Assembly (NCBI GenBank): GCA_029865945.1
Contig: JARXAH010000026.1
Coordinates: forward strand, 1-64,000
Source: Bacteriovoracaceae bacterium
Lineage (GTDB): Bacteria > Bdellovibrionota > Bacteriovoracia > Bacteriovoracales > Bacteriovoracaceae
Length of the DNA stretch: 64,000 bases
Reading direction: 5' to 3'
Shown: piece after piece, positions 46,274 through 58,920 of the stretch
Layout: the number at the start of each line of letters is the position of its first letter
Numbering within the stretch: position 1 is the stretch's first letter
The notes under the pieces: model-generated
The model's database searches: none
Told to the model about the DNA's origin: nothing
Seen by the model: the letters and a program-made list of their open reading frames with translations, nothing else
Position numbers and translations under genes: made by a program

Positions 46274-46396
46274 ACCAATTCCGTTTAATTTTCAGGTACT
46301 AGGAGGGCGAGGCTGAAACGACGAGACGTGCTAATGCACGACGCAGCAGTAGAAGTCGATGGCCGACAACGTAGATGAAGATTAAACGGATTTGGT
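46274..46396. repeat. Inverted-repeat element A with structured GC-rich core
   Basis: A 21-nt left arm (46274-46294, beginning ACCAATTCCGTTTAAT) and right arm (46376-46396, ending ATTAAACGGATTTGGT) pair with two mismatches. The 81-nt core is GC-rich in an AT-rich setting. It contains CGTGC-TAAT-GCACG (46327-46340) and the motifs CTAGGAGGGCGAGG near its left end and CGACAACGTAGATG near its right end. The right arm ends next to the stop codon of the minus-strand gene at 46398. It could be a structured RNA, a terminator of unusual form or a small mobile repeat. Confidence 0.7.
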
Positions 46397-53451: not shown

Positions 53452-54474
53452 CTATGACAATTGACCAATGATGTTCCACTGATCTCTCAGGTCATTCACC
53501 TGTTCTCTCCAGTAGTGTTCTGTTCCGTACCAATAAAAGGCTTTTTTGAATGATTCATCATTGAAACGTTTTCCGATCCACGCAGCAAAATGAATAAAGC
53601 GCAACGACCTTAGGGGCTCAACTAATCGAAGCGTCGAATAATCAAAATGGTGAAATTCTTCATAGGCCTCTAAAAAAATATTGCGCTGGGCTACCGATTC
53701 TTCATCTCTACCAGGAGTGACTAGCCAAATATCTTGAACGGGAGGGCCAATGACCATGTCATCAAAATCTAAAATGAAAAGTCCTTCCGGGCGCCACAAA
53801 ATATTTCCCCGGTGGCAATCGCCATGAATTCTTTGCACAGGAATTTCTTTAAAAAGTTCGTCTGATTTTTTACAAATTTTTTCCACTAATTCTTGATACT
53901 CCTCCACATGATGGGGGTGAATGAGTTTACTGCTCAAAAGAGAACTGAGATTATTTCTTCCATAGGTTTGCGGGTCAAGTTTCAATCTATGAGTCGCCTG
54001 TCTCGTTTTTCCAATTTGGTGAATCCTGGCGAGTGTTCTCCCTAGGATTTGGAGCATTTCATCGCTAAACTCATCGGGATTTCTTCCCCCTCGTTTAGGA
54101 AAGAGGGCGAAGTTTATATCTCCCTCTTTGGTAAGAAAGAGCGATTCATTATTGAAACTTAGCGGTGCAATCACGGGAATTTCATGCTCTAGTAGATCAA
54201 ATAGAAATTGGTGTTCCTCCAAAATTTGTGACCTATCCCATCTTCCTGGACGATAAAATTTAATCACTACGTAGCGATCACTTGCTAAGTTTCCCGTCTG
54301 ATCTCCCAGTGGCCTCTCAAGTTCCACTTCATAAACTCGGTTTTCCAAACTATTGAGCGCCATGACTCTTCCCGTACTTCTTAGGCCCACTGAGTCGACA
54401 CAACGAAGAATTTCATCTGGCCCGATCTCTAGGAATAGTTTTGTCTCTTGGTTGCCCCACATATTTTGAATCAT
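53452..54474 (-). CDS. srkA: SrkA (YihE)-like serine/threonine kinase
   Basis: A 340-residue kinase of the APH-like superfamily. GRVMALNSLENRVYEVELE and YVVIKFYRPGRWDRSQILEE are near-identical in type to E. coli SrkA/YihE, a stress-response protein kinase. The catalytic loop is RIHGDCHRGNILWR (about residue 215) and the metal-binding motif ILDFDDMVIGP. AAAGG lies 8 nt before the ATG. It is the first gene of the CDO operon and ends just upstream of the ATP-grasp start. Confidence 0.9.
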   Translation of the reverse strand: MIQNMWGNQETKLFLEIGPDEILRCVDSVGLRSTGRVMALNSLENRVYEVELERPLGDQTGNLASDRYVVIKFYRPGRWDRSQILEEHQFLFDLLEHEIPVIAPLSFNNESLFLTKEGDINFALFPKRGGRNPDEFSDEMLQILGRTLARIHQIGKTRQATHRLKLDPQTYGRNNLSSLLSSKLIHPHHVEEYQELVEKICKKSDELFKEIPVQRIHGDCHRGNILWRPEGLFILDFDDMVIGPPVQDIWLVTPGRDEESVAQRNIFLEAYEEFHHFDYSTLRLVEPLRSLRFIHFAAWIGKRFNDESFKKAFYWYGTEHYWREQVNDLRDQWNIIGQLS

Positions 54475-54630
54475 TTTTGATACCTTTAAATATAAAGATC
54501 ATTTTATGTTTTTTTATTTATTTTTACGAATCGACGCTTATTCACCTTTTTTTAAAACGAAATCCTTCCATGTTCTTAATATTTTGCACCATCCCGTCAT
54601 TATGCTAAAAATGTGTATCTACCTTCGTGG
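54475..54630. other. AT-rich upstream region of srkA
   Basis: 156 bp of AT-rich DNA between srkA and inverted-repeat element B. It should hold the srkA promoter. No unambiguous -10/-35 pair and no ORF with a ribosome site were found. Confidence 0.4.
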
Positions 54631-54834
54631 TTTTGTAACTATCTAAGGCCCTCTGGAAATTTCGTCACGTCGAGAGTGTGCCCAAGCACAGTCGAGGGAC
54701 GACGTTTCGAGGCTTGCTCCTGGCAAGCCGCAGATTGAGGAATCCCATACGTGGATTCCGAAGGGTTTCGATCCAACGATTTGGATCGAAACGTAGAGTG
54801 GCGAAATTTACGAGGGACCTAGGTAGTTACAAAA
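54631..54834. repeat. Inverted-repeat element B: long outer stem enclosing four hairpins
   Basis: Left arm 54631-54668 (starts TTTTGTAACTATCTAAGG, ends AAATTTCGTCAC) and right arm 54798-54834 (starts GTGGCGAAATTT, ends GTAGTTACAAAA) pair over about 37 bp with few mismatches. Inside are four hairpins in series: TGTGC/GCACA (54677-54690), GGCTTGC/GCAAGCC (54711-54729), GGAATCC/GGATTCC (54739-54759) and GTTTCGATCCA/TGGATCGAAAC (54765-54792). The core is GC-rich and non-coding. The layout is that of a multi-branched RNA or a composite palindromic element. Confidence 0.8.
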
Positions 54835-54902
54835 ATGTTAAATCCAAACTCTTACCTTACTAGTATTATGTCGGAGGTAACATATATTTGTGGGGTGTAA
54901 AA

Positions 54903-55499
54903 ATGAAAATTTCTATTGTTTGTGGCAGTCAGCGTAATGGACAATCTCAAAATGTGATGAATTATTTAAAGCAGATTTGCTTGGATAACGGTATAGAAGA
55001 GGTCAATGGTATCGATCTCTATCATCGAAATATCAAAACTTGGGACGAAAGTGTTTGGAAATTAGGAAAAAATTGGGATGCAAATTGGAATCAAACATCA
55101 GAGGAGTTGAAATCTTCTGAGGGGTGTATTTTTATTTCTCCAGAATACGGGGGAATGGTGCCGCCAATTTTAAAAAATTTTTTCCTTCTCTGCTCCCAAA
55201 ATGAATTGGCCCATAAACCAGGATTGTTAGTTGGCGTTTCTTCAACTCGCAATGGCGCTTACCCCATCATGGAACTTCGGATGAGCTCGTTTAAGAATAA
55301 TAAAATTTGCTACATGCCCGATCATCTCATTTTTAGGGACGTTGAGAAATTTTTGGCCGCCCCCAAGAGCGAAGAATTTATTTATATGGATGAGCGTAGT
55401 CACTATACGATCAAAATGTTGAAGGCCTACGTTCAGGCATTTAAAGAGATTCGAAATAAGGAAGAAGTGTTTTTGCCAAAATATAAGTTTGGGATGTAG
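54903..55499 (+). CDS. NADPH-dependent FMN reductase-family protein
   Basis: A 198-residue flavodoxin-fold protein. MKISIVCGSQRNGQSQNVM is the phosphate-binding first loop (GSxRxxS pattern) and FISPEYGGMVPPILKNFF the second FMN-binding loop (PEYN/GG). It should reduce FMN or quinones with NAD(P)H. I use the ATG at 54903, where the fold starts; a TTG at 54888 has a better ribosome site (GGAGGT at 9 nt) and would add five residues. It is a single gene next to inverted-repeat element B. Confidence 0.87.
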   Translation: MKISIVCGSQRNGQSQNVMNYLKQICLDNGIEEVNGIDLYHRNIKTWDESVWKLGKNWDANWNQTSEELKSSEGCIFISPEYGGMVPPILKNFFLLCSQNELAHKPGLLVGVSSTRNGAYPIMELRMSSFKNNKICYMPDHLIFRDVEKFLAAPKSEEFIYMDERSHYTIKMLKAYVQAFKEIRNKEEVFLPKYKFGM

Positions 55500-56989: not shown

Positions 56990-58789
56990 ATGAAACCCAC
57001 ATTTTTCTTAAATTTTTTCGTCCTCATTTCTTTCGTTTCTTGTGCACAGAAATCTAATTTTCGAGTAGCGGAATCACTTATTCCTCTTACACCACCTGAT
57101 GCACAATTAACTAGTACGCCAACTCAGGCACCAACTTCTACTTCTACCTCTTCACCGACGCCGACTCCGACAAGCACGCCCACAAAAACCCCGACGTCGA
57201 CTGCCACGCCGACCTCAACACCGACAGCAACCGCAACCCCAACCTCGACACCGACTTCAACACCAACAAAGTTACCGACCCCTTTCCCCACGTCAACGCC
57301 CACTTCAACCCCAACCGCAACACCTATTACTGGTTGCATGCAAGTGAAGGCGAGTAATTTTTTATCAACCGCCAAAAATGAAAATGGCAGCTGCCAATTT
57401 AAGGCATGCTTAGATGATCATTTTGAAGAGTATACAGATTCCTTAACAATCCTCATCAATCAGTATAATTCTCTCTACGGGCCGTCTTATCAAGGATCCA
57501 ATCGCGTAGAATCCACTTGTAAAAATTTAAAAAAATATTGTCAGAATATTGATGCGAAAAATTATACCGGAGCCACCAATCAAAAAGGTGAGGAGTACTG
57601 TTACTTCGCGGGATGTGATCAGCCCAAATATGCAGGGTATCAAAAATATTTAGAATATATCGAGTATTTAAAAACCCATAAAGGTGAAATCACAATTGAT
57701 AATAGTGATCCTGTGTGTGGAAAAAAATTATATGATGAATTCAAAAAAGAATTTGATGTCACGAAACAAAATCAATCGGCACCCGTTTCCGTGGCCGTAG
57801 TATTAGATGACTCAGGAAGCATGCTTGGCGAAATTGACATGACCAAAGAGGGACTTAAAGATTTAGTGCCAACCCTAAAAGATTATCAGGCCAACTTAGA
57901 TTTAAAATTTTATAAACTCAGTCAACTACACGCCAATCAAAAACAAACTTTTACCCGAATGGTGGGACAAGACCCCGAATACTTAGTGGAATACTTTAGG
58001 CCAAATCCTGTCGATACCGTAAAATTAAATCCTGGAATGAACATAGCAGAAATACAAAAGAAGATTGATGTTGCCATTAACAAAGTCAGTATCAATTATC
58101 AATATAGTAAAGAGCAAGGACTTTGCTATGCTAAAAGACTCTTAAATGATTTCGCGACGGCACAAAATAAAGATAATCATGAAATCATGCTGCTTTTAAC
58201 GGATGAAGATGACAATTTTAAAGGCACCACCGAAGAATGCTATCAGTCGGCGAAAAAATTAGAAACTTCCGATGGCTATGTTTTTAATTACACTTTATTT
58301 AAAGATTCCTTCGGAGGAAAAAATCTTATTCAAGCTTTAATGGATGATGTCAATAAACTTCCTGCGCTCCAAAAGCAATATGGATTTATTGGGATTATTT
58401 ACAATGAGAATAATTCTCTTTGTGATCCTGGTCAAAATACTCATGGAAAAAGTTATCTTCAGTATCACCAATCCTTATTGGCCAATGGAACTTCTTCCTT
58501 TATAGGTGATATTTGCAGTTACGATTACCGACAATTGCTAGAAGATAGTTTGGCCAAAATGTTGCTCGAAGTGGTCGGGTTTAAATATAAAATTTCCTCT
58601 TTAAGTAAACACCCAAAACTTTTAGAGGTAAAATTAGAATTAAATAATGGAGTTCTTGAGACTGTGGATGCTGCAGATTATGATCTCACTGACGACGGAA
58701 TTGATCTCTCTCTCATTTTCCACATCTCCATGAAACAAAGACTTCAGGCCGCCAAAAAGGTAATTGTTTTAGTGCAAGAGGATCTATAG
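56990..58789 (+). CDS. VWA-domain lipoprotein with Thr/Pro-rich stalk
   Basis: A 599-residue lipoprotein. The signal peptide ends in the lipobox ISFVSC (Cys near residue 19). Residues about 43-113 are a Thr/Pro/Ser low-complexity stalk. A Cys-rich segment follows (about 115-240), then a von Willebrand factor A domain from about 265 with the MIDAS motif VLDDSGSM and [10 protein letters not shown]. The domain should bind a protein ligand through a metal ion. The stalk would hold it away from the membrane. The N-terminal half is repeat-rich, and its antisense frame is an artefact. Function is probably adhesion or complex assembly at the cell surface, which is inference. Confidence 0.85.
57110..57330 (+). 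repeat. Thr/Pro-rich low-complexity repeat region
   Basis: Degenerate 6-bp units of the type ACNCCN encode Thr-Pro and Ser-Thr-Pro runs ([18 protein letters not shown]) in the stalk of the VWA lipoprotein. The repeats are imperfect at the DNA level. Confidence 0.8.
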
Positions 58790-58813: not shown

Positions 58814-58920
58814 TATACCGGTCCTGTTTTGAATTTCCAGTGGCATCTTCGTCGTCCACGTATAGAAAATACGCTCTCCTCCTCAGCTACTCACTGGAAA
58901 TTCAAAACCGAACCAGTATA
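58814..58920. repeat. Inverted-repeat element C with structured core
   Basis: A 29-nt left arm (58814-58842) and right arm (58892-58920) pair with only three mismatches; the inner 17 bp are perfect (left arm TTTTGAATTTCCAGTG). The 49-nt core carries a CGTAT/ATACG hairpin (58859-58873). Read on the minus strand, it has CTGAGGAGGAGAGCG at one end and CGACGACGAAGATG at the other, like element A. It lies between the VWA lipoprotein stop and glmM. Confidence 0.8.

Follow-up and report, generated by a model that had tools for sequence, protein, structure and literature searches.

A non-autonomous IS66-type element carries a conserved, strand-specific fold shared across different transposon ends and genera

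ERIC, RUP, BOX and REP/BIME are short, structured intergenic repeats that occur in many copies, and some of them are moved in trans. Correia elements are recognized by a characteristic end sequence and a TA duplication. The Correia/NEMIS elements of Neisseria are short MITEs whose transcripts form long hairpins, which RNase III cuts at the terminal repeats (PMC2229807, PMC10969869). The CIR repeats of Caulobacter and Brucella are small and intergenic, and their RNA fold is conserved phylogenetically (PMC2229807). In the IS66 family, ISDge4 of the ISBst12 group has the ends GTAACTGCTCAGCA and an 8-bp duplication (PMC12898284), and 8-bp duplications are also found for ISPpa5a and ISPpa7 (PMC3281130). 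IS66 goes unmentioned in a review of prokaryotic MITEs.

Here we describe element B, located in a 64,000-nucleotide window of a Bacteriovoracaceae genome. Like the ISBst12 group (e.g. ISDge4, PMC12898284), it has GTAWCTAC..-type ends and 8-bp duplications. Unlike these insertion sequences, it is 216 bp long, has no ORF, and its interior is not IS-derived. It resembles Correia/NEMIS in being a short MITE predicted to form a long hairpin. Correia/NEMIS have other ends and no described tandem-GA core, and the core described here spans several end types and many genera. Membership in Correia/NEMIS was rejected, as element B has GTAWCTACC ends and 8-bp duplications instead of the Correia end and TA duplication. 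The CIR repeats are alike in small size, intergenic position and a conserved fold, but their architecture, with two long arms and a GANTC loop motif, is unlike that of the present class. ERIC, RUP, BOX and REP/BIME are, by description, also short, structured and multi-copy. Our literature search found no description of such elements.

Element B is a transposable element of 216 bp (a MITE) that is non-autonomous and has ends of the IS66/ISBst12 type. Copy alignment, target duplications and a match to R1, a covariance model of the B family, place it at 54615-54830 on the plus strand. The initial annotation had drawn its borders at 54631-54834, which is short on the left side. Flank comparison of copies identified exact 8-bp target-site duplications, AAAAATGT at 54607-54614 and again at 54831-54838. 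A search of its own genome (3.08 Mb, 103 contigs) returned 90 matching pieces at about 36 dispersed places, many at contig ends as is typical of repeats; these copy counts rest on model searches of a fragmented assembly. Exact 8-bp duplications are present in 8 of the 15 complete B-family copies, element B included. They differ by site, AAAAATGT at element B and CATTTTCC, TTCCTTTT, ATTTTTTT and others elsewhere. In two further copies, L007 and L012, inspection by eye shows exact duplications once a decayed end or an inserted base at the end is taken into account.

An intact IS66 element of 1514 bp with a single ORF, present in the same genome, has ends matching those of the B family, GTAWCTACCTA. 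An end-pattern search found one place with two facing ends 1514 bp apart, at 1337-2850 of contig C76 (L060 1337-2850), and the region between them encloses a 471-aa DDE_Tnp_IS66 (PF03050) transposase ORF. The element has perfect 18-bp ends, GTATCTACCTACGTCCCT, and the outer-end consensus GTATCTACCTACGT is identical to the first 14 bases at both of them. Ends of related elements read GTAACTACCCACTAAAT, GTAACTACTCACCCCCT and GTATCTATTCAGCG. Members of the ISBst12 group are marked by a single ORF, GTAAC-like ends and 8-bp duplications, and the C76 element is of ISBst12 type. Its flanks have no matching target duplication. The match between element B and the C76 element is confined to the terminal bases; an internally deleted IS as the source of the interior, common in MITEs and not required, is not what we found. 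Because its ends match IS66 and it has no transposase of its own, element B is a non-autonomous IS66-type MITE. It was probably moved in trans by the IS66 transposase at C76 or a close relative. The initial annotation had listed a transposable element without its own transposase among three possibilities, to be checked by searching for copies and target duplications, and both searches support it. BLAST with element B against 115 relatives, plasmids and phages gave no match, and neither did an exact-pattern search in IMG/VR. An empty site was sought through two named relatives of the neighboring gene; their identity is 41%, and the gene pair is not preserved in them. A distant relative of this gene carries the label Bdellovibrionales, which makes Bdellovibrionota the probable phylum.

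Fold prediction and copy comparison divide element B into fixed and variable parts. The outer left end, GTATCTACCTTCGTGGTTTT at 54615-54634, was defined by end comparison with the C76 element. It is followed by the 5' arm of the closing stem at 54635-54671, which begins with a second, inner end, GTAACTATCTAAGG. Hairpin H1 (54674-54693) is variable and missing in most copies. The conserved core, matched by the covariance model R2, spans 54697-54745. It contains the apical hairpin GGCTTGC-loop-GCAAGCC (54707-54734) with a GA/GCA internal loop beneath it, an arrangement common to the families described below. Hairpin H3 (54739-54759) is absent from other copies or replaced by a different hairpin, and H4 (54765-54792), with a perfect 12-bp stem, is found in the longest copies only. 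The 3' arm of the closing stem and the right end, ...CCTAGGTAGTTAC, occupy 54796-54830. The aligned copies define a B-family unit starting with GTATCTACCTACGTGGTTTT and ending with CCTAGGTAGTTAC. Its length varies from 146 to 216 bp, as whole hairpins are present or absent at three positions. Several combinations of these occur, and one instance has a different hairpin in the same position. One copy of a second family, F2 (L194), likewise has an extra hairpin.

The predicted fold is far more stable than expected from composition. For 54631-54834, the plus strand folds at -100 kcal/mol, compared with -56.7 +/- 4.5 for shuffled sequences (z -9.68), and the minus strand folds at -88.3 (z -9.73). 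No shuffle reached these energies on either strand, in agreement with the multi-hairpin element initially annotated. The annotated closing stem is indeed long, but it is not an unbroken 37 bp; it consists of 33 pairs in three blocks with small internal loops between them. The four internal hairpins are present in the computed fold, with stems of 5+2, 8, 8 and 12 bp. Also as annotated, element B is GC-rich (0.495, where the whole window has 0.386 and the flanking spacers 0.27-0.33) and non-coding, the longest ORF touching it being 61 aa, and it lies between diverging genes at 53452-54474 (minus strand) and 54888-55499 (plus strand). Its position in this divergent spacer would suit a regulatory RNA or attenuator serving these two genes as an independent unit. 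However, the target duplication and the roughly 36 dispersed copies next to unrelated genes make such a role very unlikely.

The core of element B belongs to a larger class. Its plan consists of tandem-GA internal loops around an apical hairpin, reached through a long closing stem. R1 matched six other genomes in which BLAST gave nothing, and the matches have the same plan with different stems. Relatives of element B appear only with structure models. R2 was built from a cross-genus core alignment, with element A of the window and families F2, F3 and F4 outside its training. It finds element A at E 0.004, as well as F2, F3 and F4, further multi-copy families in the same genome with other ends. 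These ends are TATACTGATGC..GCATCAGTATA, flanked by TA, for F2; CCTGATTCGG..CCGAATCAGG for F3; and TACCAAGCC..GGTTTGGTA for F4. An IS630 element of this genome (C103) was rejected as the parent of F2, as its ends, TATAGATCG.., differ from TATACTGATGC. A third model, R3, was trained on F2, F4 and A plus two single elements, with no B-type sequence. It recovers copies of the B family with E-values between about 1e-5 and 6e-4; E-values of these models are rough. R3 is positive in 40 of 369 genomes of the phylum, comprising this genome and 39 others, in 34 genera. In this genome, a hand count over the union of match lists gives about 80 class elements in all, element A included. Copy numbers in other genomes are lower bounds; in one of them (G022), ten retrieved copies with identical ends, TATACCCTTCG..CGAAGGGTATA, lie at ten unrelated sites.

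Element A is thus a second class member in the window, with its core at 46290-46379 on the plus strand and, in the predicted fold, its own closing stem at 46274-46396. Its tandem-GA core reads CGACGAGACGTGC-TAAT-GCACGACGCAG, and its ends are of the ACCAA/TTGGT type. The initial annotation had stated that element B does not share the core motifs of elements A and C. This does not hold for A, which R2 finds untrained. Element C (58814-58920, minus strand) was not significant with the models (E 0.69) and is at most a candidate member. It is a long hairpin resembling the class, with ends TATACTGG..CCGGTATA and inner strands AGGAGGAGA..GGACGACGA.

No covariance model in Rfam release 15 matches element B or its core. 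Relatives of element B gave stray weak Rfam matches. A single weak full-length match to RAGATH-9 (E 0.89) was not reproduced, and RAGATH-9 is absent from 125 genomes. The Mu-gpT downstream RNA, considered because of the phage loci described below, gave no Rfam match either.

Homologues were compared for compensating changes, the absence of which had been named in advance as a refutation of the fold. They keep the pairs, and double changes are pervasive. In a cross-genus core alignment made by sequence alone (A4), 80.2% of paired cells can pair, compared with 32-41% when the alignment is slid, and double changes occur at 20 of 28 pairs. A second alignment (A5) is 91.8% paired. In 20 loci matched by R3, 19 of them in other genomes (A6), the corresponding values are 88.1% versus 30-39%, with double changes at 24 of 26 pairs; this alignment was made with the model and leans towards its structure. 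Among the A6 paired cells, G-U occurs 29 times and A-C twice. Single-stranded A and G are near-invariant in A6, and A12, A39, G69, A79 and A93 are present in 20 of 20 loci. Most unpaired positions read GA on the 5' side, opposite GA or GNA on the 3' side, and they probably form tandem G-A pairs between short helices. A tandem-GA core with compensatory pairing is found throughout the class of A, B, F2-F4 and others. Of 40 elements, 39 fold better as the plus strand than as the complement, and one is a tie. Compensatory changes, conserved unpaired purines and the excess of G-U over A-C together indicate that one strand has been selected to fold. The conserved, strand-specific fold is shared across different ends and genera.

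These data bear on two simpler readings. A dispersed GC-rich palindrome could be a binding site for a nucleoid protein, as initially suggested. Strand asymmetry and compensatory changes that leave the sequence unconserved are unexpected for a site in duplex DNA, and we regard this suggestion as unsupported and its chance as minimal. Alternatively, element B could be an ordinary MITE, in which the palindromes are by-products, template switching or gene conversion keeps the arms symmetric, and the fold has no function. MITEs are inverted repeats, and correction between arms can mimic compensatory change. However, such correction leaves unexplained the unpaired purines conserved across genera, G-U pairs far above A-C, and a core common to families with unrelated ends. 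Within the B family, one decayed copy left out, the apical stem is free of differences across 252 cells and the closing stem has 6 among 828 (0.7%), while the ends differ by 3-8% and the apical loop by 21%. The loop varies and the stem does not. Stems that are near-invariant while the ends needed for transposition vary by 3-8% do not fit neutral MITE decay. The ordinary-MITE reading is weakened by these results, and we consider it improbable.

The folded strand could also be DNA. The plus strand would then fold during replication or transposition and be recognized by an enzyme, HUH/RAYT-like or other, with the pairing describing a DNA substrate. Strand asymmetry and stable tandem G-A mismatches also fit this, and single-stranded DNA folding also gives G-T over A-C. 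Class members tend to adjoin 3' ends of genes and tRNAs; REP elements likewise adjoin 3' ends of genes. On the other hand, the 8-bp duplications and IS66 ends of the B family need no folded single-stranded substrate, and one core is found with different ends. We consider a DNA substrate unlikely, though it deserves weight.

We therefore favor, as the probable explanation, that element B is an IS66-type MITE with a structured-RNA module not described before. The core fold probably acts as RNA. The multi-branched non-coding RNA of the initial annotation stands as far as a selected, strand-specific fold is concerned, and its transcription is presumed. Element B would be transcribed from a host operon or spacer and would then fold as RNA. 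The closing stem may be trimmed by RNase III, or the GA loops bound by a protein; RNase III cleavage of Correia/NEMIS RNA is the best-known parallel. Such a fold could make the insertion tolerable or useful, which would explain how one RNA module came to be taken up repeatedly by different transposon ends. Additional hairpins would be tolerated side branches. More tentatively, the class as a whole may be an undescribed structured RNA with short Watson-Crick blocks and tandem-GA loops, a module in small mobile elements with unrelated ends in one phylum and in phage head-gene clusters, possibly an RNA satellite for which different transposases serve as vehicles. MITEs are usually viewed as passive IS leftovers, whereas here selection keeps a folded core across genera and unrelated ends. 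The thing that spreads, or that makes insertions tolerable, may thus be the RNA (or single-strand) fold. The analysis yields a consensus, three covariance models and about 80 loci in one genome plus 39 further genomes; RNA databases would gain a new family from it.

By simple ORF calls, 67 of 74 class elements are intergenic. In other genomes, the gene on the 3' side of the element is antisense in 26 of 34 cases and sense in 8, which indicates that sense transcription is not the rule; no antisense bias is seen in the genome of element B. Two members in different genera (L218 508-599 and L225 1501-1591) lie in the 23S-5S spacer, sense to the rRNA and about 20 nt before 5S. Three others, in three genera (L215 1501-1594, L223 1501-1592 and L227 201-292), are antisense and lie some 20-25 nt away from the 3' end of a tRNA. 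Two IMG/VR phage contigs have class members (L321 4182-4273 and L293 4558-4651, E about 1e-7), which are GC-rich and lie antisense between phage head-protein genes, named from their ORFs.

Two B-family copies are located at gene starts. One (L024 1509-1654; C97:80444-80589 of the same genome, G000) sits in the opening codons of a gene resembling an oxidoreductase, where the AGGAG..GTG of the element could provide a new in-frame start. The other (L019 1-140, contig C50 of G000) stops 3 bp short of the ATG of a miaA-like gene. Elsewhere in the window, 56990-58789 encodes a predicted protein in which a long T/P/S/A repeat (TPTSTPT..) lies close to the N terminus.
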